A DNA stretch of 64,000 bases, taken from Bacillota bacterium (lineage in GTDB: Bacteria; Bacillota_I; Bacilli_A; RF39; UBA660). Where the stretch lies: NCBI GenBank assembly GCA_015059245.1, contig SVAU01000003.1, positions 62,001 through 126,000 of the forward strand, read 5' to 3'. Shown piece after piece: positions 1 through 24,834 of this stretch; positions within the stretch are counted from its first letter, which is position 1, and each line of letters begins with the position of its first letter. The translations under genes and the position numbers were made by a program. The notes beneath the pieces are model-generated. The model was not told the DNA's origin. It saw only the letters and a list, made by a program, of their open reading frames with translations, and ran no database searches.

Positions 1-3000
1 AATTTGATTTGGTATTAACTCTTCAGTATCTTGTTGATATAGTTTTGGTAAAATGCCTTCGCTTGATTTTGAGTAGTCGAATGCTTTGCCTAATTCTATA
101 ACATCAATATATGTAGTATCTACACTTAATTGTTCTCTTGTTAATGTTGATCCACCATATGCTTCAGATGACTCAACACCATTAATCAATGTATCTTCTA
201 ATGTGAAGTTTGTATCACCAAGTTCAATATTTGGGATTAATTTATCTCCATTTTTAGGAGTATAAATATTACCTAATGATAAGTTCTTTGTATATCCTGA
301 CGCTGCTGTTGTAGAGAATCCTACTAGACCTCCAACATATCCTAAGTCACCAGATACATTTACTGTAGTATAACTTGTTTCTACTGTACCTGTACATACA
401 CCAACTAGTCCACCAGTGTATATGTTGTTACTTACTATTTTACCTGTTGAGTATGTATTAGCTATGATTGTGTCTCCACCAGTTCCGTCATATGCGTGAC
501 CGATAAGTCCACCTACACCTTCAACACCAACTGATTTATCAACTTTAATATCTACATTTCTTGCAAAGTTGTTAATTACGTTACCACCGGCTGTTTTTCC
601 GATTAGTCCACCTATTGCAACTCCTGATGTTTGAGAATCACTTATAATTTTAATATTAGATGCTGAGCAGTTTTGATATTTACTTGCTGCTGAGTATCCT
701 ACGAATCCTCCAACATATAATGTTGATTGTTTTGATGTTTCTGGAATAGTTATTGTTATATCTTTTACATGTACATTATTGAATACTGCGTAAGCTGTAC
801 TTTCACCTATTACTCCACTATAAGGGGTATCAGTTGTTTTTTCTATGTTTTCGAATGTTAAGTTTCTCATAATACCGTTAAACTTATCGAATATTCCGCG
901 TTTACCACTAGTAGTTATCTTAGCGTCTCTAATAGTAAATCCATTTCCTTCTAGTGTTCCACTATAGTTTGCGATATAGAATGATGTATTATTGTAGAAT
1001 GATAAATCATTCATTAAAGCATAGTTTTGATTATTATGATCGTTTATTGTTTTCCAGTCTGCTATTGTACGAATTTCTTTAAAGAATTCTACATTGGCAT
1101 ATTTTTCACCATTTGCATATTCTCTTGTTGATTCGTATCCACTACTTGTTGATGTAATGCTTAAGATTGTATATTTTGAGTAGTAGTTTACTGGGTTTAA
1201 TAATTTAGCTCTTAAAATTGTATTTCCATCTTCGTATTCTTGGAATACTATATTACAATCTAAGTCTGAAATAGATATGTCAGTTATTTTAGCTCCTTCT
1301 GGATTACTAATACTGAATTCTACTTCTGCTGTAGTCATAGTTTTTTTGTCTTCAAGAACTTTCATTGAAACTATGTCTACTTCTTTTTTATCTAGTTTTT
1401 CTGGTAATGCAATGTATGGTTGTGTTGGCATTTTTGTTGTTGTGAAATTAACGTGTGGATAATATCCGATTTTAACCATTTCTTCTACATTGAATCCATC
1501 ACCTAAAACACTTTGTTGGAATGCAACGTCATTTAATGCTGTTGCTGTTGTTTTTTGTTGGTCAGCTTGTGTATATATTTTACTATTGTAATAATAGATG
1601 TCTTGTAAGTCTGCTGTAGCTCTAACCTCACCTACTGCAGGTCCTTTTGAGAATAAACTTCCGTTTGAATCACCAACTGTATAAACGCCTTTAATTTGAC
1701 CGTAAGTTTCATAAGCGATTAAACCACCTACTAATTTACTATCTTTTGGATAAACCATATTTGGTAAAACATAAACGTTTTCTACTCTAGATCTTACTCC
1801 ACCATATTGTTCAACTAATCCTAAGTTTGATGCGGTACTTGTATATACTGGATCAATTATGATATCTGAACCATAGATGTATCCATTCTTGATATCTCCA
1901 TAGTTTTGTCTAACTAGTAAACTTGAATGAGAATAGAAGTTTGTTTCGTTAACTACATTTACTACGAAGTTTTTAATAGTACCACCAACATAGTTTGTTG
2001 TTACTAATGGTGAAATGTATTGGTTTGGAAGATTTTCTTCTGTTTCATCTATAAAGTTAATATATACGTTTTCAATAGTACCATAGTTACTTACTATGAA
2101 ACCAGTTGAACCTGTTGAACGATATATTTGATCTTGGTGTACATCTAAAACTAAGTTTTTAATAACACCTGTCTTTTCAACTCTACCGATTATTGCAAGA
2201 CCATTTGTATCACTAGATGTTGTTGCTGATGAATATGTTGATAATGTATGTCCTTGGAAATCTATTTCTCCATAGAAATATCTATATCCATAACCTAAAC
2301 GTTCACCTGAATATTTTTCTAGTGATAAGTCATTTAATAATATGTAATGTCCATGAGGTTGGATGAATACCCAGTCGGAAACTGTTGATATACCCATAAC
2401 TTCATTTTCTGTTGATATTTCAAAATTTGATAATGCGTAGAAGCGTCCATTGATATATACGGATAGTTCTACTACGTATTGTTTACCTTCTTTTAAATCT
2501 ATTTGATGAACTACGTCTTTAATACCTTTAGTTCCATTATATACATTACATGGCGCTTTGTCTGAATTAGTAATTCCTGTTTTACTTGAGTCGTTTTCAC
2601 AAGTTACTTCTTTACCATTTTCATATATTCTTATGTAATATTTATCGTTGCTAATTTCGCCACGGATGTCTGCTAAATTAACTTTTACTTTTGTTATTAA
2701 ATCGTATTGATATTCATCATAGATTATTGGTTTCGTCGATGCTCGGAATTTCCTTATTGTAAATTCGACTTTTTCTGGTTTCAGTTCATCTGGCGACGAT
2801 GGATTTCTGAAGAATATCAACATCTTAGCTTTTACTGAAGGCCTATATGTTTGACCTGAAACAACATTTTCTATTGAAACTATTCTTGCATTCGTTTCTG
2901 CGTTGTAAATATAAATATATGCTGATTCTGTGTTGTAATTAAATTGATAATAAGTTCCAGCTTCTAGTTCAATGTATTCAGATACTCTAACGTCTAGATT

Positions 3001-6000
3001 TGATACTTTTCTGTTTCCAGAGCTATCATAGTAACCATTTTCATAGTTGATTTCTGGTTTGAATTCTTCTTCATCTTCTGATACTACTGCTTTTAATAAA
3101 GATATTTCGTATTCTGCTAGGAATGAATCTCCACCAGTAATATAGAATGTTAAGAAGTCACATCTATTTTTACCATTATGGTTTGCTGTATGACATACTA
3201 CTTTTCTGTTATCTGTTTTGTCATTTTTATATGAGCCTACGATAAATGAATATGTAAATGATTTAGGACTTGTAGAAATACCTGTGATTTCTTCGTTGTA
3301 ATTCCATGTTGTTGTACCACCTAAGTAGTTTGTAACATATACTCTTCTATTTGTTAACTCTGGAGTAAGTGTTTTTATTTGGAAAGTAACTGTTACTCTC
3401 TTACCATGATATTCACTTAAGTCGTAAGCATAATCTGCTGTACCACTCTTACTATAAAGGTGTAAGTTACCATTTTTATCTACTGTCTTTGGTATGTTAT
3501 ACCATTGTTCAGTTTGATACCATTTAACTTCTGATTTAACATCGATTAGGTTTTCACCTTTACTAACTCTTTCAGAAGATATAGGTTCGATTGTACCACT
3601 AATACCAGGTTCAGTAGTTATTGTTAATGTTTTTAAAGTATATTTAGTTTTATAATCTACTGGTTTATGAGTTTCGTTATATTCATTAGCATAGAAGTTG
3701 ATTTTGTATACTTGGTTAGCGACTAAGTTGTTATATGTTATTCTAACGAAATCTTCATTTGTTTTAACTAATTGAGTTTTGATTAAGTTATTTTTCTTAT
3801 CTCTTAATTCAACAACTATATCATCGGTTAAGATTGCGTGGTTTTTATCGTCAATCTTTATATCGAAGTCGATCATCTCTTGGTTAGCAAACATGTTAAT
3901 TACTTTAACTTCAACTGGTTGCTTACGAGTATATATAGGTTCTATAGTGTAGATACATTGTAAGTTGTAATCTGTATTACCTTGTTTTACCATTGATGAG
4001 AATTCTACACGATATTCAGTAAATGAATTTAAGTCTGTTATTTCAAATGTTTTACTTTTTCTATTTTTTAATGTATCAAGATCATCACCAGTGATATCTT
4101 TTGTTAACACTAATTTATTAGTATTTTTTTCGTAAATATTAAGTGTTAATTTTTGTAATAGTTTTGTTAATCTTGAATCTGTTCTGTTGTGATTTAGTTC
4201 AAGTTTTAATGATGCTGATGTATCTGTTATATCTGTAGATGATGCTTTTAAGTGAATATAACCTAAACTAGAGATTGGTAATGTTACAAGGTTGATGTCT
4301 TTTAACATTATGTCTTCTATTAGACCTTTACCATCGCCTAAATCCATGTCAGCATATATTTTTAAAGTAAATACTCTATCCGGATCTAGATTTGTTACTT
4401 GAACATATGGCCCTTCAACTTTTCCAGATTGAATGATGTCTTTTGCTGAATTGACGAGAATGTATCGATAGTTCTTTAATTCAACTTTATCATCGTTTCT
4501 TAAGTCGAGGCTTACTTTCATATTGATGTTATCATTATCAACTATTTTTAAGAACAATGTCGGCATGTTTTTACATGTCTTTGTTACACCAGTATTGTTT
4601 ATTGCATCAATTATGTTATTGTCTTTATCAAAGAATAATACTTCATATGTTACTGTTCTATTTGATTTTAAGATATCAGTTGATGTAACTGTTACTCTTT
4701 CACCTTTTAATAACGCTTGAGTAAGTTTTGTATTTAAGATGAATGTTTCACCTTCAACTCTTATACCTACTTTTTTAACACCACGGATAGCTTCACTATT
4801 TAATGATGATTTTATTTTTAGGTTTTTAAGTTCCATTTTACGTGGATATATTTGACCATTTTCAAATGAAATGTCTATTTTTCCAAGGGAACTTCTATCT
4901 TTTGTATGAACTGTTCCCATATAGAATGTTACTATTTTCTTTGTTTCCCAGTCACTATCCATGTAAGTATATGTTCCAACTATTACATATTCAGTTTCAG
5001 AAGATAATCCAGTGATTACTACATCACTTGATTGATAATATGTTCTTCTTGTTGAAACTTTATTATTTATATAAAGTGTAAATGTTGGTTCTTTTACTAT
5101 TACACCAGCTGGATCGTTTATTGTTATCTTTGATTCTAATGAATAAACTTGAGCCGTAAATTCAGTATTATCTACTGAAGGTTTTTCCCAATATCTTTCT
5201 GCAGGTGGTGCTGGTTCTTTATCAGGTTTTGGCTGAGGTTGTGGTCTTGGTTTATTTGGTTTTTGAGGTTTTGGTTTAGGTTCCGGTTCTGGTTCCGGTT
5301 CTGGTTCTACATATTTAGGTGGTTCTTCTTCTTGGATGTATACTGAACCAGTTAATGTAATTACTTCTTCATAAGTATATTCATAACTTTCGTTACCACC
5401 AATATAGTAGAATGTTACTTTACTCTTTAAGTCTACGTCACTTATTACTTTTCTAACAAAACCATTTTCTCCTCTTTCTAAGTAGTTAATTTGGTTTTCG
5501 AAGAAAAACATAAAACTATTTGTTGGTATTGTATATGTATTTAACATTGTTTCTATTTTAATATCATAAAGATTTATTAATATACCATCTTGATATGATA
5601 AGAATAAATATGATTCTTGATCTAATTGCGTATATGATACGTTATCGTATATTTTCCCGTATGATAATACTAAATTAGAAAAACCTGTTGTTCTTTCAAA
5701 ATCGGTACTTAGTAGGTTTATGTTATCGTTATAGTTGATGATAGTTAAACCATCATTAACGTATAAAGGATAATTTACATTTACAGTATTTCTATTTTCA
5801 TTTGCAATATAGTGGTCGAAACTATTTTTCATTATAGATTCTTCACGTTTTACTTCTACTGTTGTGATGTTTTCTACTTCTTCTGGTTCTTTTTCTTGTT
5901 TGATTGTATCAAGATTAGAACTACCAATCATATATCCATCGATATCTATTACAAATACTTCTTTGTAGTTGTTATATATTATTAAAAATGACAGTAATGT

Positions 6001-6087
6001 AATTAGCAATAATGCTGCGATAATTACTGGTATTTTATTGGCTAAAAATGAATTTTTGAATCTCTTTGAATTTTTTCTTTTTTTCAT
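1..6087 (-). CDS. Giant surface protein with GLUG-like repeats, 3' end outside window
   Basis: This reading frame is open from an ATG at 6087 to the window edge (2029 codons), so the C-terminus is missing. The start is preceded by AGAGGTG. The protein begins with a Lys/Arg-rich stretch and one hydrophobic helix (about residues 15-37), with no signal-peptidase site that I recognise, so it is probably a type II anchored extracellular protein. A Pro-rich linker of PEPEP/PKPQ type lies at about residues 252-300. Several hundred residues of beta-rich Ig/Fn3-like modules follow. The last part seen (about residues 1780-1990) has repeated GLUG-like motifs such as YVGGLVGFS, YTGGLVGVC and GGLIGHAYD, a repeat known from bacterial adhesins and IgA-protease-type surface proteins. 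It is the last gene of the ATPase-linked block and has its own promoter. Adhesion or substrate contact is inferred from the repeats only. Confidence 0.8.
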   Translation of the reverse strand, partial: MKKRKNSKRFKNSFLANKIPVIIAALLLITLLSFLIIYNNYKEVFVIDIDGYMIGSSNLDTIKQEKEPEEVENITTVEVKREESIMKNSFDHYIANENRNTVNVNYPLYVNDGLTIINYNDNINLLSTDFERTTGFSNLVLSYGKIYDNVSYTQLDQESYLFLSYQDGILINLYDIKIETMLNTYTIPTNSFMFFFENQINYLERGENGFVRKVISDVDLKSKVTFYYIGGNESYEYTYEEVITLTGSVYIQEEEPPKYVEPEPEPEPEPKPKPQKPNKPRPQPQPKPDKEPAPPAERYWEKPSVDNTEFTAQVYSLESKITINDPAGVIVKEPTFTLYINNKVSTRRTYYQSSDVVITGLSSETEYVIVGTYTYMDSDWETKKIVTFYMGTVHTKDRSSLGKIDISFENGQIYPRKMELKNLKIKSSLNSEAIRGVKKVGIRVEGETFILNTKLTQALLKGERVTVTSTDILKSNRTVTYEVLFFDKDNNIIDAINNTGVTKTCKNMPTLFLKIVDNDNINMKVSLDLRNDDKVELKNYRYILVNSAKDIIQSGKVEGPYVQVTNLDPDRVFTLKIYADMDLGDGKGLIEDIMLKDINLVTLPISSLGYIHLKASSTDITDTSASLKLELNHNRTDSRLTKLLQKLTLNIYEKNTNKLVLTKDITGDDLDTLKNRKSKTFEITDLNSFTEYRVEFSSMVKQGNTDYNLQCIYTIEPIYTRKQPVEVKVINMFANQEMIDFDIKIDDKNHAILTDDIVVELRDKKNNLIKTQLVKTNEDFVRITYNNLVANQVYKINFYANEYNETHKPVDYKTKYTLKTLTITTEPGISGTIEPISSERVSKGENLIDVKSEVKWYQTEQWYNIPKTVDKNGNLHLYSKSGTADYAYDLSEYHGKRVTVTFQIKTLTPELTNRRVYVTNYLGGTTTWNYNEEITGISTSPKSFTYSFIVGSYKNDKTDNRKVVCHTANHNGKNRCDFLTFYITGGDSFLAEYEISLLKAVVSEDEEEFKPEINYENGYYDSSGNRKVSNLDVRVSEYIELEAGTYYQFNYNTESAYIYIYNAETNARIVSIENVVSGQTYRPSVKAKMLIFFRNPSSPDELKPEKVEFTIRKFRASTKPIIYDEYQYDLITKVKVNLADIRGEISNDKYYIRIYENGKEVTCENDSSKTGITNSDKAPCNVYNGTKGIKDVVHQIDLKEGKQYVVELSVYINGRFYALSNFEISTENEVMGISTVSDWVFIQPHGHYILLNDLSLEKYSGERLGYGYRYFYGEIDFQGHTLSTYSSATTSSDTNGLAIIGRVEKTGVIKNLVLDVHQDQIYRSTGSTGFIVSNYGTIENVYINFIDETEENLPNQYISPLVTTNYVGGTIKNFVVNVVNETNFYSHSSLLVRQNYGDIKNGYIYGSDIIIDPVYTSTASNLGLVEQYGGVRSRVENVYVLPNMVYPKDSKLVGGLIAYETYGQIKGVYTVGDSNGSLFSKGPAVGEVRATADLQDIYYYNSKIYTQADQQKTTATALNDVAFQQSVLGDGFNVEEMVKIGYYPHVNFTTTKMPTQPYIALPEKLDKKEVDIVSMKVLEDKKTMTTAEVEFSISNPEGAKITDISISDLDCNIVFQEYEDGNTILRAKLLNPVNYYSKYTILSITSTSSGYESTREYANGEKYANVEFFKEIRTIADWKTINDHNNQNYALMNDLSFYNNTSFYIANYSGTLEGNGFTIRDAKITTSGKRGIFDKFNGIMRNLTFENIEKTTDTPYSGVIGESTAYAVFNNVHVKDITITIPETSKQSTLYVGGFVGYSAASKYQNCSASNIKIISDSQTSGVAIGGLIGKTAGGNVINNFARNVDIKVDKSVGVEGVGGLIGHAYDGTGGDTIIANTYSTGKIVSNNIYTGGLVGVCTGTVETSYTTVNVSGDLGYVGGLVGFSTTAASGYTKNLSLGNIYTPKNGDKLIPNIELGDTNFTLEDTLINGVESSEAYGGSTLTREQLSVDTTYIDVIELGKAFDYSKSSEGILPKLYQQDTEELIPNQI

Positions 6088-6114
6088 AGAAACACCTCTA
6101 TCCTCATTATTAAT

Positions 6115-6123
6115 ATTATATCA
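6115..6123 (-). promoter_or_regulatory. Extended -10 promoter of the giant surface protein gene
   Basis: On the minus strand the sequence reads TGATATAAT, an extended -10 box, 28 bases before the ATG at 6087. No good -35 box is visible. It lies just after the terminator of the ATPase unit, so the giant gene is probably transcribed separately. Confidence 0.55.
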
Positions 6124-6140
6124 TATATCTCCCTATTTTT

Positions 6141-6174
6141 AAGCAAAAAAAGAAAAAAGTGCATAAGCACTTTT
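6141..6174 (-). terminator. Terminator of the ATPase transcription unit
   Basis: An 8-bp stem (AAAAGTGC / GCACTTTT) with a 4-base loop overlaps the stop codon of the 257-aa gene. On the minus strand it is followed by TTCTTTTTTT, a rho-independent pattern. Confidence 0.75.
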
Positions 6175-6946
6175 ATTTATCAAATGTAGGCGCACTTTGT
6201 ACATTTTTGATTAGTAATCTATTTTGTTTTGAGTATATAATCATGTCTGTACTAAGGTTTAATTTATATTGTCCTATTTCTGCTACTACGTCTGTATTTA
6301 CAGATGGAATTTCTTTATAAGTATCAGCAGCTTTATTGTAATAAATTACGTCTCCTCCATATACTACTTGAGCATATGATAATGGTGATAATGTTATTTT
6401 TTGACCATTTATTGTTATAGGAGTTTCAAATAAGAATACATATAAGTCTACTCCATCGTATAGGAATGATGGTTCTAATTCTATATTACCATCATCTTTT
6501 ATTAGATAAGCACTATAGTTTTCTTGGTCTGCACCTATTCTTGTGAAACCAGGAAGTTTATAGTTTTTATTTGTTATTCTTGGTATATAGTATCCCATAG
6601 TTAGAGGGATAATCATTTCATTATCTATTTTTGAAAAATATATTGGAGTAGAATCTACTTCTATTTCAATATCGTTATATTTTAAGTTTACTACTTCACC
6701 ATCTTTTTTGAAGGATAGTTCGCCTGTATAGTCAAATCTAACTCCACTTAAGTATTGATATAAGTCATAATTTTCCATTTTTAATTCTGTTAAATCTTCA
6801 TATTTATCGTATGTTATGAAGAATATTATTACCATTATTAGTATGGCTAATAGAGAAAAAAGAAATATAGGAACACTCTTTTTTAGTTTAAGTTTTTTTC
6901 TTATTTTTTTTGTTTTTTCTTCTCTTAGAACCTTTTCTTTTTTCAT
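6173..6946 (-). CDS. Single-pass extracellular protein of the ATPase operon
   Basis: I do not recognise a family. The 257-aa product has a strongly basic N-terminus (about residues 1-26), one membrane helix (about 27-47) and a beta-rich remainder expected outside the cell. A good ribosome site (AAGGAGTG) precedes the ATG. It follows the polytopic 162-aa gene by 18 bases and ends in a terminator, so it is the last gene of the ATPase unit. Its architecture matches the other anchored proteins of the block, which suggests one external assembly. No catalytic motif was seen. Confidence 0.7.
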   Translation of the reverse strand: MKKEKVLREEKTKKIRKKLKLKKSVPIFLFSLLAILIMVIIFFITYDKYEDLTELKMENYDLYQYLSGVRFDYTGELSFKKDGEVVNLKYNDIEIEVDSTPIYFSKIDNEMIIPLTMGYYIPRITNKNYKLPGFTRIGADQENYSAYLIKDDGNIELEPSFLYDGVDLYVFLFETPITINGQKITLSPLSYAQVVYGGDVIYYNKAADTYKEIPSVNTDVVAEIGQYKLNLSTDMIIYSKQNRLLIKNVQSAPTFDK

Positions 6947-6964
6947 TTATATCACTCCTTAATT

Positions 6965-7439
6965 TTAGGCTTTTTTAAATAGTAGTTCTAGTTTTCTTGT
7001 TGTAGCATACATTAAGTATACTGCTATACCAACAGAGAATACTATACTTAAGATATTTATTAATTGATCAAAATGTACTTCCATTAAATATGATTTAATT
7101 AAGCTTAGTAGTATTAAAACTACTACAGTTATAGCATCATATACTAATTCTGCTATTGCATAATGAAGATTTAAAGAACATATTAAGGAAATTATGCAAC
7201 TTGCTATTATCATAGCTACATAAATAACACTAAAGTTTGAAATATTTATTATGCAATATGTAGAAACAATTAGATTTAGGGTGATACCTGCTAATAGGAT
7301 ACTTTGACTTTTGTTTAAGTCTAGGAAGAATCCTAGTATCTTTATTCTTTTTTTATTGAAATTCTTAGTTGCAAAAAAGATAATAGCTGATACTGTTAAT
7401 ACTATTAGACTAAAATATAAATAAAAATCTAGTAATAGT

Positions 7440-7453
<14 letters not shown>
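6965..7453 (-). CDS. Polytopic membrane protein of the ATPase operon
   Basis: This 162-aa protein has about five hydrophobic helices and no recognised family. I chose the ATG at 7453 because AGGTGAAT lies upstream at normal spacing; an in-frame GTG at 7462 overlaps that site. The gene overlaps the end of the epsilon gene by 14 bases, so translation is probably coupled. It sits where an F-ATPase operon normally ends and is the only multi-helix protein in the cluster other than subunit c. It does not look like subunit a: there is no arginine inside its helices and no conserved a-subunit motif. It could be a stator, anchor or coupling protein; that role is inference. Confidence 0.7.
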
Positions 7454-9878
<2,425 letters not shown>

Positions 9879-9879
9879 A

Positions 9880-11724
9880 TTATTTTACTCCATCTTCTTT
9901 GATTTCGAATGGATTTGTTTGAACTTCTGTACTATCTAATAAGAATTCTTCTTCTGTTACTTTTTGAGGTTTGTTTGGATCAATTGGTGTTGGTGCTTGT
10001 GCTGGAAGTGGTTCCATTGTTGGAGTTGGCACTGCTACTTCAGCAGGAACTGCAACTGGAGTTTCTTCTTTTTTCTCCTCTTCAAGTAATATTCTTGGCA
10101 TTAATACTGTTTTTTCAAGCATTACATCGTTATTCTCTGGTGCTTGAGTGTTTGTTATTTCAACAGGTTTTGCATCTTTTATTGCTTGTTTTTTTGCTTC
10201 TATTGCTTCATCAGTTATTTTTGTGTTTTGATTATCAGTTGGTGTTGGTTCAACTACTGGAGCTGGTGTTGGTTCTTGTGGTGTTTCTGGTTTCTTAGTT
10301 GTTTTTGTTGGTTTATTTTTATCTTTTGGTTTATCGTTTTTCTTTTTCTTTTCTTCTTGTTTTGGTTCTTCTGCTTTACTTTCTTCTTGTAGCATTGTCA
10401 TTGAACCACTCATAACGAAACCAAATGTTTCTATCATTTTTTGTTCTGATCTTGGTGAGAATTTAGGTTGTTTTAATAACTCTAACATTTTCTTACCACG
10501 ATATATTTTTTCTTGTAGGTCGCTAGACATTGAGTCTATTTTAACTAATTGATATACGTCTGCTGTTTCTAAGTAAGATAGTAATTCTCTTCTAACTACT
10601 GCTCCTACTGTTTTGATACTTGGTTTTTGAACTGCACCACCTAGACGTGATACTGAAAGTCCAAAGTTTACAGCAGGCTTTTGACCTTTTTTGAAGTTCT
10701 TTTCTGATAAAACTATTTGTCCATCAGTAATTGATATTATGTTTGTAGAAACGTAGTCTGTGATGTCTCCACCTTTTGTTTCTACTACTGGTAATATTGT
10801 TATAGAGCCACCATTTTTGTGTTGGCAACCTTTTTCTAGTAATCTTGAATGTGTGTAGAAAATATCTGCTGGATATGCTTCACGTCCAGTATTTTTTTCT
10901 GCGATAAGAGCAATTTCTCTACATGCATCGGCATGTTTTTTTAAGTCGTCGATACATACAAGAACGTCTTTTCCTTCTTTCATGTATTCTTCTGCCATTG
11001 ATAAAGCTGCATATGGAGTTAACTTTATTAATGGAGAAGTATCGTCGTTAAATGCTGCTACTATTGTTGTATATGCATTTGCTCCTTTTTCTACTAGTTT
11101 AGTATATAATCTTTTTATTTCTTTTTTTGTTTTACCAATTGAAACATAAAAGCATATTACATCTTTATTTTTTTGGTTAACTATTGTGTCTAGTAATATT
11201 TGTGTTTTACCAGTTTTTTTATCACCGATAATTAACTGTCTTTGTCCTCTACCTATTGGGAACATTAAATCGATACTAGATATACCTGTTTCTAATGGTC
11301 TATTAACTGATGTTCTATCCATGATAGGAATTTTATCTGTTTCTATTGGTATCATTTTTGTATCATTAAAGTGTTTTTCTGACATTCTATCGATACCGAA
11401 TAAGTCTACTATCATACCAATTGAATTTTTAGAGAAACTTGCTTCTAATGCTTCTCCTGTTGTTGTAATTGGATCTCCTATCGCTATTGTTCCATCAGTT
11501 TTTACTAAAGCTATATATACTTTACTTTCTTCAATTTTATCTACGTATCCTACGTTTTTTTCAGTGCCAATATATACCTTTTCAAAAAAGAAAGCGTCAT
11601 CAAGCCCAGTTGCTTCGATAACGAATTCATTTATTCTAACAACTTTACCTATGTGATAGATATTGTTTTTGTTAATTATACTTTCTATTTTTGAGTCTAT
11701 TAAGTCTTCTATATTGTTTTTCAC
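9880..11724 (-). CDS. atpA: F-type ATPase alpha-like subunit with long disordered tail
   Basis: The nucleotide-binding core is clear. Numbering from the in-frame GTG at 11733, Walker A GDKKTGKT is at 170-177 and VSRLGGA, carrying the arginine finger that acts on the beta site, is at 361-367. I chose the GTG at 11724 because GGAGG lies six bases upstream; the GTG at 11733 is inside that site. The folded part ends near residue 447, shorter than usual alpha (about 500). A tail of about 168 residues follows, rich in Lys, Glu, Pro and Thr, first basic-charged (EEKKKKNDKPK), then Pro-rich (PAPVVEPTP), then acidic. Such a tail is not part of known alpha subunits and may dock a partner in the cytoplasm. 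Confidence 0.93.
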   Translation of the reverse strand: MKNNIEDLIDSKIESIINKNNIYHIGKVVRINEFVIEATGLDDAFFFEKVYIGTEKNVGYVDKIEESKVYIALVKTDGTIAIGDPITTTGEALEASFSKNSIGMIVDLFGIDRMSEKHFNDTKMIPIETDKIPIMDRTSVNRPLETGISSIDLMFPIGRGQRQLIIGDKKTGKTQILLDTIVNQKNKDVICFYVSIGKTKKEIKRLYTKLVEKGANAYTTIVAAFNDDTSPLIKLTPYAALSMAEEYMKEGKDVLVCIDDLKKHADACREIALIAEKNTGREAYPADIFYTHSRLLEKGCQHKNGGSITILPVVETKGGDITDYVSTNIISITDGQIVLSEKNFKKGQKPAVNFGLSVSRLGGAVQKPSIKTVGAVVRRELLSYLETADVYQLVKIDSMSSDLQEKIYRGKKMLELLKQPKFSPRSEQKMIETFGFVMSGSMTMLQEESKAEEPKQEEKKKKNDKPKDKNKPTKTTKKPETPQEPTPAPVVEPTPTDNQNTKITDEAIEAKKQAIKDAKPVEITNTQAPENNDVMLEKTVLMPRILLEEEKKEETPVAVPAEVAVPTPTMEPLPAQAPTPIDPNKPQKVTEEEFLLDSTEVQTNPFEIKEDGVK

Positions 11725-11745
11725 ACTAGACACCTCCTATAGTTT

Positions 11746-12509
11746 TTAAATACTATAATCGTATATTTTTCCTTTATATTTAATTTTAAACCCCTCTGTT
11801 AGTTGTTCATCATATATTGTTTCTATTTGATCATCTAAATGATTAAAGTTTAAATTGATATTAGAAACATAAATATATATTTTTGGATCTGTTTGCATTA
11901 TTCTTGTTTCTAATTCGTTAACAAATTTTGCTACTGAGAATTTTTTTACATTTATTAAATCTTGAACATATTGTTTTATATCATCTTTTAATAGTTCGTT
12001 GATTATTATTTTTTGTTCTTCAGAGCTGTATGTAGAAATTTTGTATACTACTTTGTGAGTTAGATTTTCTTTAATACCCATATATATGTAATATAATTCA
12101 TCGTTTTCATCAACTTCTGTTTCTAAAAATTCTCGAACTTTATTTTCGTAACTAAAATTAAAAACCCCTTTTATCTTTCTATATTTTTCGAACATTTTGT
12201 CATCTTGGTAGTCTGCACCTTTTGGTATTACTACATCTATTTCTTCTAGTTCGATTTCATCTTTTTTGGCTTGTAATTTTTCGATACTATTTATTATATA
12301 TTGTTCTTCTTCTTTTCTAGCCTCAATTGTTTTATTTAGTTCTTCAATCTTTATTTCCTTGTCTTCTACTAGGAAATCATATTCTTGTAATTTATCTATG
12401 AAGTTTTTTCTTACAAGAACGTTAACACGTCTTATTGTGAACAAAAATAGTATTGTAAGTATTAATGTAAGTATTACTACTACTACAATTGCTAATATAA
12501 TTTCATTCA

Positions 12510-12510
<1 letters not shown>
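11746..12510 (-). CDS. F-type ATPase b-delta fusion (peripheral stalk)
   Basis: The 254-aa product joins two stator parts. Residues 3-26 form one membrane helix and 36-90 a charged coiled coil, as in subunit b. Residues 105-254 look like delta, ending in EGFKIKYKGKIYDYSI, which resembles the delta ending GGF-x-L-x-GDKVIDGS. The gene sits between c and alpha, exactly where b and delta genes normally lie. Its ATG overlaps the stop codon of c (TAATG) with no clear ribosome site, so it is probably translated by coupling. Fused b-delta genes are known in Actinobacteria, in a different arrangement. The delta assignment rests on the C-terminal pattern and on position. Confidence 0.75.
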
Positions 12511-12761
<251 letters not shown>

Positions 12762-12787
12762 TTACCTTACCTTTCATTCTATAATTA

Positions 12788-12797
12788 ATTATACCAT
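12788..12797 (-). promoter_or_regulatory. Promoter of the ATPase core unit
   Basis: On the minus strand an extended -10 TGGTATAAT lies 33 bases before the start of the c gene, just after the terminator of the upstream surface-protein unit. No strong -35 box is visible, which is common when the TG extension is present. Confidence 0.65.
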
Positions 12798-12825
12798 ATT
12801 TTTTAGTGCTTTCTATACTTTTTTC

Positions 12826-12854
12826 ATTAAAAATAAAAAAGACCGAAGTCTTTT
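12826..12854 (-). terminator. Terminator of the surface-protein unit
   Basis: A stem AAAAAAGAC / GTCTTTTTT with a TTCG loop (minus strand) lies right after the stop codon of the 489-aa gene, followed by a T-rich run. It separates the two surface-protein genes from the ATPase genes. Confidence 0.8.
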
Positions 12855-14324
12855 TTAATATGTAAATTTTTCTTTTACATTTAGTTCAACTAAATTACCA
12901 TTATATATAGCATCTTCTAGTCTTAGTTCAAGGATTGATCCTTCTGCTAATTTCATTTTTGAAGAGAAGCCTTTTTCACTTAATGCTTCTAGAGTTTTTA
13001 TATTTATTCTATTTATATATTGATCTCCTGCATATAATGCTATTGATCCACCTTCTAGAGCATATTCTTCTTTCATTTTGAATGTGAAATGAACGTATCC
13101 TTTAGATATTTTATCTATTTTGATACTTATATCAGGTTTGATTGTTCTTACATTGATTGTATCTTCTACTTGGTCTTGTAGAATCCATTCACCAGCTAAG
13201 TCTTTTACTCTTTCGATATATCCTAAACTGATTGTATATTCATGTCTAGGAGATAGTTTAGGGATTCTATATGTTGAACCATATTTGTCTAAAAGAACTT
13301 TTTCTGTTGTTTCTTCGCCATCAATAATACCTGTAACTAGTAGGTATACTACTTGATATTGATCTCCAACGTCTGATACTGCATAAGTAACATCAATGTG
13401 TGTTGAGTTAGCTATTGCACCTCTTAAACTTACCATTTTTGTAATGTTTGTAAGGTTGTTTGCAGTATTACCTGAGTTTGTTGTACCTTGTACAATACTA
13501 TTTGTTACATTGAAATTAGCATTGGCAAATATTGTATTTGCTGCATCTATGAATAATGTTGAATCATCAATATATTGTTGGAAACTTTCTACTAACGAAT
13601 TATATTGATCAGCTAAGTTTTCATAGTCTAAATCAACTTCGTCATTCATATGATGTTCTTTTTCTTTGTATTCATTAGTACTTCCTATTACTTGTTTCAA
13701 ATCTATATTTTTAGTATCTATTAATAGTTTTTCGTTAGCTATATCGAATTTGTATTTATCAAATACTAATGTTAATGGATTTATAGTTTTTAAGTTAATA
13801 CTATCATTTAATACTGATGCATTACCTTTTTTATCTAAGTATACTAAAAGATATTTACTTGCATAAATAGATTTATCTTCAGTATATATTTCTGGAGATA
13901 CTATTAGATATTCTCTATCTGCTAATTTGTAGAATTGAGTTTCTGAATAGTTAGTTATTTCAGTAAATTCTTCTCCTTCGATAATACTACCGTCTTTATT
14001 TACTAGGTAGTTTTGACCAAAGATTTCTATTTTATCTTTTGATTTTTCATATACAACTGGTATATCTCCTAGTTCATATTCAACATCATTAATATCTAAG
14101 TAGTAGTATGTACCATTCCAACGTTGTTTGATACTTCCACCTTTGGAAGTATCAATTAAGTTGGTTTCTGAATCAAATACTATACTGTTATTTGAAACGC
14201 TGTATACTGTGCTACCGTTTTTTTGAGCTATACCTACAGCAGATACTAGTATTACTATCATTACGACTACTATGATAGAGAATATTATGATAAATATTTT
14301 ATTTCTTCCGTTTAACTTTCTCAT
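12855..14324 (-). CDS. Anchored extracellular protein with Fn3-like domains, ATPase block
   Basis: The 489-aa product has a basic N-terminus and one membrane helix (about residues 10-31), then an extracellular region. Residues 40-215 are beta-rich and of unknown family. Residues 225-270 are probably helical. Two Fn3-like modules follow (about 290-395 and 395-489), with recurring strands such as HEYTISLGYI. There is no LPXTG motif, so anchoring is by the N-terminal helix. It starts 10 bases after the 1787-aa gene and shares its transcript. The layout copies the larger neighbour in miniature, which suggests paralogous or partner subunits of one surface assembly. Confidence 0.72.
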   Translation of the reverse strand: MRKLNGRNKIFIIIFSIIVVVMIVILVSAVGIAQKNGSTVYSVSNNSIVFDSETNLIDTSKGGSIKQRWNGTYYYLDINDVEYELGDIPVVYEKSKDKIEIFGQNYLVNKDGSIIEGEEFTEITNYSETQFYKLADREYLIVSPEIYTEDKSIYASKYLLVYLDKKGNASVLNDSINLKTINPLTLVFDKYKFDIANEKLLIDTKNIDLKQVIGSTNEYKEKEHHMNDEVDLDYENLADQYNSLVESFQQYIDDSTLFIDAANTIFANANFNVTNSIVQGTTNSGNTANNLTNITKMVSLRGAIANSTHIDVTYAVSDVGDQYQVVYLLVTGIIDGEETTEKVLLDKYGSTYRIPKLSPRHEYTISLGYIERVKDLAGEWILQDQVEDTINVRTIKPDISIKIDKISKGYVHFTFKMKEEYALEGGSIALYAGDQYINRINIKTLEALSEKGFSSKMKLAEGSILELRLEDAIYNGNLVELNVKEKFTY

Positions 14325-14334
14325 AAAAACCTCC

Positions 14335-17300
14335 CTAACTATAGTAATATGTAACTTCTGATTGTGCTTCTAATGCACCTTCTGCATTATAGAAGTTTAA
14401 TCCGATTATATAGATGTTGTTAATTGTAAATCCTGTTTCTTCTGTTGGTATTGTTATTGTAACATAATATAATTTTGTGCTTGGATTATATACAACTGTT
14501 GTATTGTTGAAACTTAAGTTTGATGAATATGAGAATTCAGTATCGTAGTTAGTAACAGTAAATTGCATTGATGCTACTGTTTCCATTAACTTATATGAGT
14601 CTTGGAATACTAAATCAATTGAGTATGCATTTGATGCGTTTTTAGACGCTGTTATTGAACCTAAGTTCAAACTTGAACCATATACGATACTCTTAGATAT
14701 TCTATATTCCTCTGCTTCAGCTGTATTTGTTAAGTCTAGATTTGATACTACTGAGAATGTATAAGTTTCTCCATCTTTTAATCCATGATCAGTAGCATTA
14801 AACGAGAATGTAACGTTTTTCTTTGATGTTAATTGTTGATTTGTTGTTCCAATTGTTGTTGCTACTATTGCACCTTGTGAGTCTTTTAATACATAGTCAT
14901 ATTTACCATTTATAATTACGAAGTCTAAGTCACTTACACTTACTGTAAATGATATTGTTGTATCTGTTTTTGATGCTCTTATACCTACTGTAGGTTGTTG
15001 AGCTGTTGGTACACTAATACTTGCCTCTGCTGTATTAAGATGTTTCTTAGTAGATACATCATCGCCTTCTTGAGTATATGGTCTTAATCTAATTGTATAA
15101 TCTTCACCGTATTTGATTGTTTGTGATGCTGATGGACTAGCTGAGATTTGGATACTCATTGTTGTTGTAAGTACTGTGTTTGTTCCACTCTTTATTACTT
15201 TTCCACTTGAATCTAATAATTCATAATCTATTCCTTTATAACCATAAACAATACTTGGAGAGAATGATACTGTTAATGTTTTATCAGCATATGACTTTTC
15301 AGTAAATGACGCTCTAATGTTTTTAATTGTAACTTCTTTAATTGTAATGAATGTATATTCTATTGTATTGCTATATTGATCTACGTCGTATAGTTGATAT
15401 CTCTTAAATCCTGTTGGATCTGTTGGATCACTAACATATGCAAAGAATTTTACACCGTATTTTTTATCTGGTGTTAAACCTGGAATAGTTACTTGATTAG
15501 CTAGTTGTTCTTTAGTAAATTCGTAGATTTCAGGATCTGTTCCATCATCTATATTTCTTATTTCAACTTCGATATTTCCGTTTATTTGAGAAGCAGCGGC
15601 TTCGATTATTTTTGCTTTAATAGTTGCTTCTGTTAATAAACCTGTGATGGCTATTTGACCATTGCTATCTAAAACTGAAATACCAGGAATAATTGTATCG
15701 AATTTTATTTGTTGAGTACTTGCTATATTGTAAGTTGCTAATTGTTTTAATGTAATGTAGTTTTTATTGTATTGAATACCACTCTTAGCTAGTTTGATAC
15801 CAACTCTTTTTGAACCACCACTATACGGAGTTAATGTTAATGTATGGTTACCATTTTGGTTAAATGATAATGATGATTTAAACATACTACCATTTAGCGA
15901 AGTGCTGCTTGTTAGGCCATCTCCACCTATTTTATAATAAACTTTATCTGTTGCTGATTTTGGTACTTGTTGTACTGCAGCATATCCACCGAATTGAGAT
16001 ATAACATCGAATCCTGTACGACCTGTATCGTAGTATACTTCTAATTCAACTTTAATATATTTTCCAATATAATCTTGAATACTTAGGAAGTCTATTGAAA
16101 TAGAGTTTCCTGATATCATTTGACCATCAAATCTTAGTTCTGACGGTGATATTCCTGAGTCTACTGGTTTTACGATAACATTTACTGAAGCTACTGAATT
16201 TAGTATAGCTTGGTTTTCAGGTGAGTTATCAAAATTAATTACTAATCTATTTGTTTCAGTTGTTATTGAATATTTAATTTCTTCAAATTCTTGTACCTTC
16301 GAGAAATATTCTGTCAATAATAATGCATTTTCAGCTACAGATAGTTTGTTTAAACGTTCACTCTTTTGTAGCATTATCATATTATCGCCTGTTATACCAC
16401 TAAATACTACTTGTGAGAAGTCTAAGTCATTTATATTTCCACTTGCTAAGGCATTTGTAGAATTTACTTCACCTTTAGCTGTAGGATCGCTTTTACCTTC
16501 TTCGTATAAATATAGTTCTGGCATACCATTTTCATTTTCTACTAATGCATGGTCTATATCATATATTCTATAATTCCATACATATTTATATGTTCCATCG
16601 GCATTTACATCTGAATATGAAGGATATATTTCTACTTTAGCACTTTGTTTTACTGTTAATATATCACGAGTTGTTAAGATAATCGGTTCTCCAGTATCGT
16701 TAAATAACGGATCGTCTGGGTATTGAATTTCTTCACCTTCTATATTAAGTTCAATAGTGTATCTAAAGTAATATTTATTACCTCTTCTTAATTCATCCAT
16801 ATCGATTGTTTCTTGGCTTGTACCTGAACTTATCTCAAATATAGTATATGGTAAGTCTTCTGTATCTTCTGGTACTTCTTGTACTTTGCTTAATGCTGGT
16901 ACAACTACCCAATCACCTTTTGTGATATCAAACATGTATACTTCCCATTTTATTTTTCTTGCTGTTGAACTTTCGTTGTTAAATTGAGGAGTTAATGCGT
17001 ACGCTAATGTTGTTGTATTATCTAATTCTAAATCTTTTGATAAACCAAATTCATTGGCATTTTTATTTGTTATTTCAGTAATATATACAGCATCCCTTGG
17101 TTTATCTGGAATTGTTGGTAATACGGCATTTAAGTCGAATGTAAATGCTCCTTCTTCGATAGGAATTTCATTCGGATGTTTTGTATAGTCGTATGCTTTT
17201 GTTACAACTAATGTATATTTTTGTTCTGTGAATTCTGACTTTTCAGCATTGAATGTATCAGGAGTAATTGTTATACCATCTCTATCATATAATTGATCTT

Positions 17301-19698
17301 TTAATGTACTTTCATATGGTGCTTCTTCTGTATCATATATAGTACGCGATTTGAATGGTTCTCCTTCAACGTTTTCACCTCTATATAATTCAAAAGTTAT
17401 TTTTGTAAGTGTTTTAGCTTCATAAGATGAATCCAGCCCTTCTGGATCACTCAGTGCTACTCTTAACGAGAATGCTTGAGTTTGATCACTAGCTTGAGCT
17501 ATATTTGCTTTTAAAGGTTGTGGTTCACCTGTTTGAACATAAACACTACCTATATATGCGTTTACTGGACCATTTCCATCTCCAAGATCTATTTTACCAG
17601 TTACTTGGAATGTATATGTATCGCTAGCACGTAAACCATTTACTGATATTGGAATTGTATATTGGTCATATGCATTTTTTCCTGATGTAATAACTCTTGT
17701 AGTTGATATATCTATTGAATTTTTATAAGTTACTATAAATTCATCGCTTTGAATTACTGAGTCTGGGTCTTCTATAATAAGTGTTGATTCATATTTTTCC
17801 CAAGTTAGGGCAGCATTTTCATCATCTACTTTTATAGTAGGATATTTGAATCCCGTTAAACTCATTGTATATCCCATATTTTTTGAATACTCTACAATTT
17901 TTTCGTTGTCAAAGAATTCTACTACAAGAACATAAGTATATGTTCTATCTCTTACTAGATTTACATCATCTACTTTTACTGGTGTTGTTTCTAGTACATT
18001 TTTATTTACTACTACAGAAGGTTTATCTTGCATTATATCTTCTTCTACGAAGTATACTTCATAACGATAATTTTGAATACCATAGTCTGGATCAGTTACT
18101 GATGTAACCGATAAGTTAAATGCACTATTTTTCTTATCTATATCGTATGCCAAATCTCCAATTGTAGGTTTTTGTTTTAATGTTTTAATTGTTTTAGAAA
18201 TTGAATATCCTTCGTCTACTATTACGTTTTGACTAGATATTTGTGTCATTTTTATAACATATTCACTATTACTAGTTAGTCCAACGAATTCTACTGTTTC
18301 TACTGAACCGTTTTCGAATCTTAATGTTCTATCGTCTATTTTGTCTCCGTTATCTTTATATAGTTCCATAACAACAGAGTTTACTTTTGAATAACCTTCT
18401 TTTGTTACTTCTACTGTTATACTATTATCTGTTAATAGAGAATGTTCGAATGATACACCAAGATCTTCTGATCTAAATATTTTTGATAAGAATACTCTTT
18501 CTATTTCTACTCCATCTATTACGTATGATGCTCTTGCGTAAATTGTATATTCTGTATCTGGTTGTAGGTCTGCACATGAGATATTTACTTCTGCATCTCC
18601 ACGTGTAGCTGATTCTTCAAATATTACTTTAGCTGTTTTATTTTCAACTATTTGTACTATTGTATCTGTACTAATTAAGTTATCTGCGTCGATGATTTCT
18701 ATTTTAGCTTCTATTTTTAAAGCACTAACTATTAATTCTGATACTTTGTATGAAGGAGTTTTTTCAATTTTATCTTTGTCTACTACTTCTTCTTTATCAT
18801 CGTTATCTCCAAGTGAACCACTTGTTTCATCATCTTTGTCGCCTTCAACAATTGATGTGTCTGGAGGTTGAATTGTTGGAACATCAATATCTCCATCTTC
18901 TAAATAAACTTCTTGTTTTTCTATCTTTTCTTCTAAAGCATCAATATTACCATCATTATTTACTACTAGGTTTGTTAAAGAAATGTATTCTTTTGAACCT
19001 TTAGATATAGTTGCTTTACTTAAATTAATTTTTACGTCACTTACTAATAGATGTGATTCGCTAGATATTGTTTGGTAGAATTTATCTTGGTTATAGATTT
19101 TAACTATGTTTCCATCCATGTATTCAAATTCAACATATTCTCCAAAATCTACGATATTATCACTACTTAATACTAATCTTACGTTTTTACCTGTTAGGAT
19201 AAATTTATTATCAGATATTCTCATAAGTAAGTTTTTAAATTTAACTTCGTTATCATTTTTTAATTTAATTGAATGTCCATCTGTTGTAGCAGTTATTTTT
19301 GTATCTTTATAGATGTTATAGTAGAAAATAATATTTCTATCTACTGTACTTACATCTATACCTACTACTTTTTTAAGTACTCCTAATGAACCATCAGAGT
19401 AATGCATAATTGTATTTTCATCTAATCTAACTTTTTCTTCTTCTACTTCAAAGTTGATTGTATTACTATTCTTTTTGTATTGATATTCAGAACCATTTTT
19501 AAATGAGTATGCTTGGGCTTTTGTGTTGTTTTGAGTACTGAAAGTTAGAGCATAACCATCTTTAGTAAATGTATAAATATCAGTATTCATTGCATCGTAT
19601 ACTAATACACCACCAAAAATACTAGCAGCTACTACTAATATTAAAAATAAAGCAAATATTATTTTTCCGTTTTTCTTCATTAATAATTCTACAAACAT
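14335..19698 (-). CDS. Very large anchored extracellular protein with Fn3-like repeats, ATPase block
   Basis: The 1787-aa product has one N-terminal membrane helix (about residues 13-35) and then only extracellular sequence. Residues 40-260 form a beta-rich domain that I cannot name. Residues 265-315 are an acidic Asp/Glu/Pro linker. About a dozen Fn3-like modules follow to the end, seen as recurring strands of YTIYARASY, YTFQVTGKI, YYFRYTIEL and YTIRLRPYT type. No enzyme motif and no sortase signal were seen. The ATG at 19698 has AAGGTG upstream; an ATG at 19680 has no ribosome site. It probably forms a long flexible or rod-like filament outside the cell. The function is not known. Confidence 0.75.
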   Translation of the reverse strand: MFVELLMKKNGKIIFALFLILVVAASIFGGVLVYDAMNTDIYTFTKDGYALTFSTQNNTKAQAYSFKNGSEYQYKKNSNTINFEVEEEKVRLDENTIMHYSDGSLGVLKKVVGIDVSTVDRNIIFYYNIYKDTKITATTDGHSIKLKNDNEVKFKNLLMRISDNKFILTGKNVRLVLSSDNIVDFGEYVEFEYMDGNIVKIYNQDKFYQTISSESHLLVSDVKINLSKATISKGSKEYISLTNLVVNNDGNIDALEEKIEKQEVYLEDGDIDVPTIQPPDTSIVEGDKDDETSGSLGDNDDKEEVVDKDKIEKTPSYKVSELIVSALKIEAKIEIIDADNLISTDTIVQIVENKTAKVIFEESATRGDAEVNISCADLQPDTEYTIYARASYVIDGVEIERVFLSKIFRSEDLGVSFEHSLLTDNSITVEVTKEGYSKVNSVVMELYKDNGDKIDDRTLRFENGSVETVEFVGLTSNSEYVIKMTQISSQNVIVDEGYSISKTIKTLKQKPTIGDLAYDIDKKNSAFNLSVTSVTDPDYGIQNYRYEVYFVEEDIMQDKPSVVVNKNVLETTPVKVDDVNLVRDRTYTYVLVVEFFDNEKIVEYSKNMGYTMSLTGFKYPTIKVDDENAALTWEKYESTLIIEDPDSVIQSDEFIVTYKNSIDISTTRVITSGKNAYDQYTIPISVNGLRASDTYTFQVTGKIDLGDGNGPVNAYIGSVYVQTGEPQPLKANIAQASDQTQAFSLRVALSDPEGLDSSYEAKTLTKITFELYRGENVEGEPFKSRTIYDTEEAPYESTLKDQLYDRDGITITPDTFNAEKSEFTEQKYTLVVTKAYDYTKHPNEIPIEEGAFTFDLNAVLPTIPDKPRDAVYITEITNKNANEFGLSKDLELDNTTTLAYALTPQFNNESSTARKIKWEVYMFDITKGDWVVVPALSKVQEVPEDTEDLPYTIFEISSGTSQETIDMDELRRGNKYYFRYTIELNIEGEEIQYPDDPLFNDTGEPIILTTRDILTVKQSAKVEIYPSYSDVNADGTYKYVWNYRIYDIDHALVENENGMPELYLYEEGKSDPTAKGEVNSTNALASGNINDLDFSQVVFSGITGDNMIMLQKSERLNKLSVAENALLLTEYFSKVQEFEEIKYSITTETNRLVINFDNSPENQAILNSVASVNVIVKPVDSGISPSELRFDGQMISGNSISIDFLSIQDYIGKYIKVELEVYYDTGRTGFDVISQFGGYAAVQQVPKSATDKVYYKIGGDGLTSSTSLNGSMFKSSLSFNQNGNHTLTLTPYSGGSKRVGIKLAKSGIQYNKNYITLKQLATYNIASTQQIKFDTIIPGISVLDSNGQIAITGLLTEATIKAKIIEAAASQINGNIEVEIRNIDDGTDPEIYEFTKEQLANQVTIPGLTPDKKYGVKFFAYVSDPTDPTGFKRYQLYDVDQYSNTIEYTFITIKEVTIKNIRASFTEKSYADKTLTVSFSPSIVYGYKGIDYELLDSSGKVIKSGTNTVLTTTMSIQISASPSASQTIKYGEDYTIRLRPYTQEGDDVSTKKHLNTAEASISVPTAQQPTVGIRASKTDTTISFTVSVSDLDFVIINGKYDYVLKDSQGAIVATTIGTTNQQLTSKKNVTFSFNATDHGLKDGETYTFSVVSNLDLTNTAEAEEYRISKSIVYGSSLNLGSITASKNASNAYSIDLVFQDSYKLMETVASMQFTVTNYDTEFSYSSNLSFNNTTVVYNPSTKLYYVTITIPTEETGFTINNIYIIGLNFYNAEGALEAQSEVTYYYS

Positions 19699-19781
19699 CT
19701 ATACACCTTAAAGCATATCCTTACAACTGTCTAAATATACTCTATATACCTTTCATATATGGTTTTCCATCATACATATTC

Positions 19782-19810
19782 ATTTTACTAGATTTCGTAC
19801 TAAATTTCAA
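19782..19810 (-). promoter_or_regulatory. Promoter of the large surface-protein unit
   Basis: On the minus strand TTGAAA (19805-19810) and TAAAAT (19782-19787) are separated by exactly 17 bases, a good housekeeping promoter. The predicted leader before the ATG at 19698 is about 75 bases. Confidence 0.65.
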
Positions 19811-24792: not shown

Positions 24793-24834
24793 ATTAATCA
24801 CCTGAATATATAATAACATTTTTTCACTAATATA

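Follow-up and report, generated by a model that had tools for sequence, protein, structure and literature searches.

A conserved gene row joining F1-type ATPase subunits to giant surface proteins in Bacillota and Actinomycetota: a possible ATP-driven motor for surface proteins

Introduction

What does an F1-type ATPase do when its genes stand among genes for giant, membrane-anchored surface proteins? This question is raised by a stretch of 64,000 nucleotides, which we refer to as the window, from a member of the Bacillota (GenBank assembly GCA_015059245.1, contig SVAU01000003.1, positions 62,001 to 126,000 of the forward strand). An initial annotation of the window had pointed out genes resembling those for subunits c, b-delta, alpha, gamma, beta and epsilon, flanked by surface proteins and one polytopic membrane protein. 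It proposed that ATP-driven rotation is passed through a c-like ring to external filaments, for movement, adhesion or export and not for energy storage. Here, we present a computational analysis of this locus. By a small measure we favour the reading that it is a conserved eleven-gene locus in which ATP-driven rotation moves surface proteins rather than pumping ions.

Results

An eleven-gene row is conserved in three bacterial classes

Eleven contiguous open reading frames (ORFs), read with the standard code, occupy window positions 1–19698 on the minus strand, all of them where the initial annotation had placed them. In order, they encode surface protein 1, surface protein 2, a c-like protein, a b-delta-like protein, the alpha-, gamma-, beta- and epsilon-like subunits, a five-helix membrane protein, surface protein 3 and surface protein 4. 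The numbers of membrane helices given in this paper are based on hydropathy or on one predicted model.

When one genome of each GTDB species was scanned with an alignment of the c-like protein, 74 loci were obtained. Two of these were left out of the synteny counts: L026, an ordinary Chloroflexi atp operon, and L074, whose contig ends within the c gene. The counts, which are based on BLAST and on the strand of c, include only those loci with enough contig for the gene concerned. The b-delta gene was detected in 68 of 72 loci, alpha in 71/71, gamma in 68/68, beta in 67/67 and epsilon in 65/67, and the genes for surface proteins 1 to 4 were detected in 55/57, 62/65, 62/63 and 43/49 loci, respectively. 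All nine scored families are present in 33 of the 42 loci that have room for all nine, and no scored family member is encoded on the strand opposite to c. Some of the misses are failures of BLAST; L070, for example, has a frame of the right size at the place of b-delta. The surface protein genes are therefore syntenic with the c-to-epsilon genes in relatives belonging to Bacilli, Clostridia and Coriobacteriales, and the row is conserved across these three classes, which upholds the grouping that the initial annotation had seen in a single genome.

The hosts include Bacilli, Lachnospiraceae (Kineothrix alysoides and Chakrabartyella piscis), Oscillospiraceae, Family XIII and Coriobacteriales; they are scattered among bacteria, and many of them come from animal guts. 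The spread of the row is patchy. The b-delta protein was detected in at least 16 of the 193 genomes of the order to which host genome G001 belongs, G001 included (E < 1e-38; eight further genomes of the order, with E values of 3e-5 to 8e-4, were not counted). It was also detected in at least 3 of 398 genomes of the phylum of K. alysoides and in at least 1 of 149 genomes of the class of one Coriobacteriales host, with the centre genomes included in both counts.

The c-like protein has no ion-carrying acid

The c rings of ATP synthases bear an ion-binding acid. The c-like protein of the window (81 amino acids (aa); 12510–12755), a predicted ring-former, matches PF00137 with 39.0 bits, which is over the Pfam cut-off, but it has Ser60 in the column of Escherichia coli Asp61 and no carboxylate in helix 2. 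This column was analysed for 73 rows, corresponding to the window and the 72 related loci showing c, and it contains Thr in 29, Ala in 28, Ser in 14 and Met and Val in one row each; an acid is present in 0/73 rows. The ordinary Chloroflexi operon recovered by the same scan (L026), which served as a control, has Glu at this place. Of the 168 relatives of c found in the protein database, 120 were listed, and the Asp61 position is occupied by Ser in 73 of these and by Ala in 47; the source databases label relatives of c as “F-type H+-transporting ATPase subunit c”.

In the alignment of the window and the related loci, neither membrane helix of c shows a conserved acid. An Asp occupies the place just before the Asp61 column in L056, and seven loci carry an acid close to where helix 1 begins on the outer side; neither feature is conserved. 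The Gly-rich motif of helix 1, which packs c rings, is retained in the alignment. Moreover, all related loci retain an Asn-Pro pair close to the outer C-terminus, which suggests that c has a partner on the outer side. The absence of the carboxylate, which the initial annotation had missed, greatly strengthens its claim that the system does not serve energy storage. Because c is without the ion-carrying acid, ATP is likely burnt to move surface proteins, and not made.

The catalytic head is of F1 type with intact motifs

The alpha-like subunit (617 aa; 9880–11733) and the beta-like catalytic subunit (452 aa; 7711–9069) both match PF00006, with 239.8 and 224.9 bits, respectively, and the gamma-like subunit (270 aa; 9066–9878) matches PF00231 (84.6 bits versus a cut-off of 39.9). 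The C-terminal part of beta matches PF22919, a C-terminal domain of the V/A type (36.2 versus a cut-off of 24.7). Against the NCBI models for F1Fo subunits, alpha, beta, gamma and c all score under the cut-offs, beta narrowly so (455.9 versus 462.85 for atpD). The catalytic motifs of beta are intact: Walker A and the catalytic motif GERSREG are present in 68/68 rows, window included, and Walker B is present in 67/68, with the remaining row having a gap there. Likewise, alpha has the P-loop and the Arg finger in 71/71 rows, window included (the alpha fragment of L054 was excluded from this count by its length). These motifs point to an alpha3beta3 head of F1 type that would hydrolyse ATP.

No accepted Pfam match was obtained for epsilon, b-delta or the proteins of 165, 257 and 489 aa, and neither b-delta nor epsilon has an NCBIfam match. 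The epsilon-like subunit (93 aa; 7440–7721), which was assigned by its position and by the initial annotation, is too short to contain the C-terminal helices of an ordinary epsilon. For the b-delta fusion-like stalk protein (254 aa; 11746–12510), a membrane helix followed by a long helix and a delta/OSCP-like domain is predicted, and the 36 best Foldseek rows for its predicted fold are all chains of F-type ATP synthases. The b-delta assignment based on this fold is of modest strength.

The alpha-like subunit of the window has a Pro/Lys/Glu-rich C-terminal tail. The length of the tail varies widely in many of the loci that lack the repeat rods described below: alpha is 617 aa in the window, 829 aa in L034 and 890 aa in L056. 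Alpha is 438–469 aa in the 23 rod-bearing loci that show it and 1416 aa in L006, a locus classed neither as rod-bearing nor as rod-less. Through this tail, the motor could be linked to something in the cell interior. In L028, gamma and beta are separated by an additional frame of 256 aa (12032–12802) that contains a hydrophobic stretch.

A five-helix membrane protein follows epsilon

The window encodes a five-helix membrane protein (165 aa; 6965–7462) downstream of epsilon. A five-helix protein is present at this place in 64 of the 65 loci with epsilon, where it stands alone in 54 and is fused to surface protein 3 in 10. Profile comparison of the fusions with the five-helix family gave 97.4%, versus 0.8% and 0.1% for the reversed and shuffled controls, and their comparison with surface protein 3 gave 100% in a run made without a control.

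Subunit a carries an essential membrane arginine that faces the ring, and the five-helix proteins have a polar residue inside helix 2. Among 55 rows, this residue is Arg in 32, Lys in 13, Asn in nine (Asn63 of the window and eight loci) and Gln in one; an Arg is located inside helix 2 in 10/10 fusions. The subunit a domain PF00119 was matched neither by the five-helix protein of the window nor by those of eight relatives (seven stand-alone and one fusion), and it was not found among the other proteins of the window row either. Because the buried Arg/Lys resembles the membrane arginine of subunit a, the five-helix protein may stand in place of subunit a against the ring. As c has no opposing carboxylate, the buried basic residue would more probably make a stator contact than form part of an ion path.

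Two surface proteins carry repeats in matched number

Surface protein 1 (1787 aa; 14335–19698) has an N-terminal membrane helix, a membrane-proximal domain and the fn3-like repeats noted by the initial annotation, with an fn3 match over the cut-off (28.7 versus 25). Surface protein 2 (489 aa; 12855–14324) also has an N-terminal membrane helix and is a homologue of surface protein 1. The N-terminal parts of the two families gave 99.1% over 425 columns in profile comparison (reversed control 7.3%), and 93.0% over 93 columns when the helix and the repeats were removed (reversed control 1.2%). A kinship of surface proteins 1 and 2 with surface proteins 3 and 4 is only suggestive.

In 24 relatives, though not in the window, a collagen-like Gly-X-Y stretch follows the membrane-proximal domain of surface protein 1, and in the same 24 relatives surface protein 2 contains a Gly-Gly-X stretch whose number of repeats matches that of the Gly-X-Y stretch of its partner. 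For K. alysoides KNHs209 (L014) and C. piscis BP5G (L070), the collagen repeats of surface protein 1 were detected with PF01391 (48.1 and 47.2 bits, respectively), and surface protein 2 has Gly-Gly-X repeats. The 58 loci with both proteins comprise 24 with repeats in both, three with repeats in only one and 31 with repeats in neither. The paired numbers are nearly one to one (for example, 27/28, 31/32, 39/40 and 68/69; the worst pairs are 22/27, 22/26 and 12/8). Over the 24 loci, the Pearson correlation is 0.992, or 0.986 without the longest pair, and the median difference is one repeat. After correction for kinship, r is 0.98 over 22 phylogenetic contrasts, a value reached in 0/20000 permutations.

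Because the numbers of Gly-X-Y and Gly-Gly-X repeats match across 24 loci, surface proteins 1 and 2 likely lie side by side in one mixed composite rod, which is the simplest reading; alternatively, each protein would form a stalk of its own, and both stalks would be fitted to the same wall. A rod of 8–69 triplets would be roughly 7–60 nm long, assuming 0.29 nm per residue. Among the matches listed from the open-licence literature in PubMed Central (PMC), there was no case of Gly-X-Y and Gly-Gly-X repeats paired in matched number between two proteins.

A probable double anchor for surface protein 4

Surface protein 3 (257 aa; 6173–6946) has one membrane helix, and an all-beta ectodomain is predicted from the model built for a relative. 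Surface protein 4 is truncated at the window edge, so that only its N-terminal 2029 aa (1–6087) are seen. In 6/6 extended relatives, it is 3242–4044 aa long and has, according to hydropathy, a second hydrophobic helix at the extreme C-terminus; because of this helix, it is probably anchored at both ends. No LPXTG-type motif was found in surface protein 4. The initial annotation had described all four surface proteins as single-pass, which is probably wrong for this one. It had also noted GLUG-like repeats, but the GLUG match in surface protein 4 of the window is under the cut-off (17.1 versus 20.5).

The ALK/LTK-type glycine-rich domain (PF12810) is otherwise known from animal receptors. It is present in surface protein 4 of two of the five full-length proteins scanned, at residues 1016–1245 of L117 (155.5 bits) and 1027–1241 of L118 (144.4 bits), and the same central slot of the window protein contains another sequence between conserved flanks. 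Such an exchange of the central domain would be typical of ligand-binding tips. No accepted protease domain or known ligand-binding domain is common to the surface proteins scanned.

Half of the host genomes contain a separate F-ATPase

Does the row stand in for an ordinary ATP synthase in its hosts? A separate normal atp operon, a point that the initial annotation had raised, is present in 12 of 24 host genomes, in which PF00119 was detected with further alpha/beta genes alongside. PF00119 was not found in the other 12; eight of these have exactly two PF00006 matches and four have a weak third (about 85–100 bits), which is probably Rho. Since 12 hosts have a separate operon and 12 show no subunit a, 0/24 hosts pair the row as their sole F-ATPase with a stray subunit a. 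V_ATPase_I was over the cut-off in 2/24 hosts, away from the row, and both of them have subunit a. The cell-wall gene family PF00905 is present in 24/24 host genomes.

PF00119 is over the cut-off in only two of the 193 sampled genomes in the order of G001, neither of which is among the 16 with b-delta. Because subunit a is so rare there, most of this order of small genomes may live without an F1Fo ATPase. Incompleteness of metagenome-assembled genomes could explain single absences of subunit a, but hardly the whole pattern. The genome of C. piscis (G023, contig C1, about 632–637 kb and 643–663 kb) has ordinary atp genes ~6–10 kb upstream of the row.

The surroundings of the row in the window

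A class I tRNA synthetase gene (PF00133) is located upstream of the row. The initial annotation had seen matched promoters, but the number of promoter-like sites is not above chance (110 versus 121.4 ± 13.2 in shuffled sequences). Matches in 10 of 12 promoter positions are located at 19810, 12815 and 6142 of the minus strand, and a terminator-like hairpin is located at 6174–6155. Elsewhere in the window, positions 23782–24819 encode a protein with hydrophobic helices at its N-terminus and an M23 peptidase domain (PF01551) at its C-terminus, and positions 26255–27571 encode a GH25 lysozyme-like protein that also has a bacterial Ig-like domain.

Discussion

A motor that may do mechanical work

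Neither the ion site nor a recognisable subunit a remains, and the head, the shaft, the ring protein and the predicted stalk are kept; mechanical work would therefore be what is left for the motor. The surface proteins would be its load, because they are part of the gene row and because the five-helix protein is fused to surface protein 3 in some loci. We propose that alpha3beta3 would hydrolyse ATP and thereby turn gamma and epsilon, which would in turn rotate a c-like ring acting as a membrane bearing or coupling and not as an ion turbine. The b-delta stalk, the five-helix protein and surface protein 3 would hold the motor still as its stator, and the buried Arg, Lys or Asn of the five-helix protein may contact the ring much like the arginine in subunit a. 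On the outer side of the ring, the composite collagen/polyglycine-like rod of surface proteins 1 and 2 would take over the motion, and the doubly anchored giant surface protein 4, with its exchangeable central domain, would bind a substrate or a host surface. The useful output might lie in moving along that surface, gripping it or letting go of it. Both the placing of the parts and the type of output (rotation, stroke or release) are proposals, as is the initial annotation's view that rotation reaches the outside and results in movement, adhesion or export; taken as a whole, its interpretation is partly supported. Among the matches listed from the open-licence PMC literature, none gave phenotype data, such as movement dependent on genes of the locus.

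A more far-reaching version of this reading, which we hold tentatively and with rather less confidence, is that walled bacteria possess, in this locus, a transmembrane machine of a new class. Such a machine would be an ATP-driven crankshaft: F1 would turn a c ring that no longer transports ions and serves purely as a mechanical coupling, and would twist or stroke a two-protein collagen/polyglycine rod of species-specific length so that giant adhesive surface proteins move on surfaces or grip them.

Other explanations

Instead of turning a rod continuously, the motor might use ATP to pull open or reset surface proteins that grip a ligand, such as a host glycan, an antibody or a particle, as has been proposed for the Type 3 mycoplasma ATPase and MIB-MIP. 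The probable double anchoring of surface protein 4 (6/6) and its exchangeable central domain would suit such a cycle of catch and release, and it has a precedent in Type 3, whose surface function requires ATPase activity according to PMC12994834. However, the scanned surface proteins have no accepted protease or known ligand-binding domain in common, the presence of c and b-delta-like proteins speaks for true rotation relative to a fixed stator, and transmission would account for the matched rod lengths at least equally well; we regard this explanation as a minority view that deserves to be taken seriously. An export or assembly machine, in which ATP would serve to secrete, fold or polymerise cargo such as the giant surface proteins, appears improbable to us. 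The export ATPases FliI and SctN are kin of the subunits described here, and putative cargo is encoded in the row itself; yet beta scores 222.7 bits on the FliI model versus 455.9 on atpD, neither Pfam nor NCBIfam recognised a component of an export apparatus in the row, and gamma, c and the b-delta-like protein are kept as in a stalked rotary motor. Moreover, with their ordinary N-terminal membrane helices, the Sec route should be enough for the surface proteins.

The locus might also encode an unusual ion pump or ATP synthase with another ion site and the five-helix protein as its subunit a. The genes from c to epsilon are indeed in F-ATPase order, and 12 of the 24 hosts show no subunit a and at most a weak further PF00006 match. 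The best argument is the buried Arg/Lys of the five-helix protein (45/55 rows and 10/10 fusions), by virtue of which a functional stand-in for subunit a is conceivable. Nevertheless, neither helix of c has an acid at a conserved place, the basic residue is replaced by Asn in the window and eight relatives and by Gln in one, and PF00119 is unmatched in the nine five-helix proteins compared with it, so that we give a pump little credence. Finally, loss of subunit a and of the carboxylate might be how the decay of an ATP synthase operon begins, one that happens to lie beside unrelated surface genes. Conservation already refutes this explanation in the main, and we consider it barely credible: the catalytic motifs are kept, gene order and surface genes stay together across three classes, and the beta sequences form one strongly supported clade.

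Implications

If the locus is a motor that moves surface proteins, as we favour, a family that has kept the ring protein, the predicted stalk and the catalytic head without the acid would provide a natural test of whether an F-type motor can become purely mechanical. The principle of surface proteins driven by an F1 motor would also reach beyond the wall-less mycoplasmas, to Bacillota and Actinomycetota that have cell-wall genes. In addition, caution is warranted against annotating such loci as ATP synthase, because relatives of c are named as an H+-transporting subunit while 12 of the 24 hosts show no subunit a.

Comparison with known systems

In its logic, the locus appears analogous to the mycoplasma ATPases of gliding and of MIB-MIP described in PMC3369863, PMC12994834 and PMC11864180. 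The initial annotation had swapped the two mycoplasma types: PMC12994834 states that Type 2 drives gliding and that Type 3 works with antibody cleavage. The Type 2 G1-ATPase of gliding Mycoplasma mobile shares the F1-derived alpha, beta, gamma and epsilon with the row, and it is likewise believed to drive surface proteins through the membrane. PMC11864180 proposes that it hands its rotation to the surface protein Gli521 and that its GliD is of b-delta origin. Type 2 has features of its own (12-helix and two-helix membrane proteins and an N-terminal extension of beta) and lacks c and a membrane-anchored b-delta, whereas the new row has a c-like protein and a membrane-anchored b-delta-like protein, no 12-helix protein, four surface proteins within the row and hosts with cell-wall genes. 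The Type 3 F1-like X0 ATPase of the MIB-MIP system shares the arrangement of a seven-gene F1-like cluster adjoining surface genes, together with a surface function that requires the ATPase, as described in PMC12994834.

We compared the Type 3 profiles with the new families, using six of the twelve Type 3 loci (no 12-helix frame was detected in L119–L123, and L130 was left out). Alpha and beta gave 100%, gamma gave 8.3% and other pairs outside alpha and beta were below 8%. The profile of the 12-helix Protein 1 reached at best 0.3% against the new families, and no such protein is present among the eleven ORFs; the profiles of Proteins 2 and 5 reached at best 0.4% and 5.8%. Membership in mycoplasma Types 2 or 3 was therefore rejected: the 12-helix protein and Proteins 2 and 5 are missing, c is present and a b-delta-like fold is predicted. 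Trees were built with 28 of the 68 new beta sequences (window included), 15/15 ordinary ones and 15/23 from mycoplasmas. In the beta tree, the 28 new rows form a clade with a support of 100 in the Shimodaira–Hasegawa-like approximate likelihood ratio test (SH-aLRT), which stands beside the mycoplasma X clade, again with an SH-aLRT of 100, but approximately unbiased (AU) tests do not reject other placements (p 0.553 and 0.506). In the alpha tree, the new sequences are held together with a support of 72 and are not joined to the mycoplasma clade; a tree joining them is not rejected (p 0.14).

The row shares with the F1Fo ATP synthase six kinds of subunit (b-delta being a predicted one), the gene order, the catalytic residues and the gamma shaft, and differs from it by the absence of a recognisable subunit a and of the c carboxylate and by divergent gamma and epsilon subunits. 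N-ATPases are a second, patchily spread type of F-type ATPase and are ion pumps with a carboxylate-bearing c. This candidate was rejected, as the scores on its models are far below the cut-offs (beta 398.1 versus 752, alpha 354.0 versus 750.5, c 18.7 versus 130.85), and a V/A-type ATPase was rejected because alpha and beta score best on F-type models. Finally, known collagen-like and Gly-Gly-X stalks likewise use repeats as extended spacers, but in the row described here, two different proteins of one motor locus carry one type of repeat each, in matched number.

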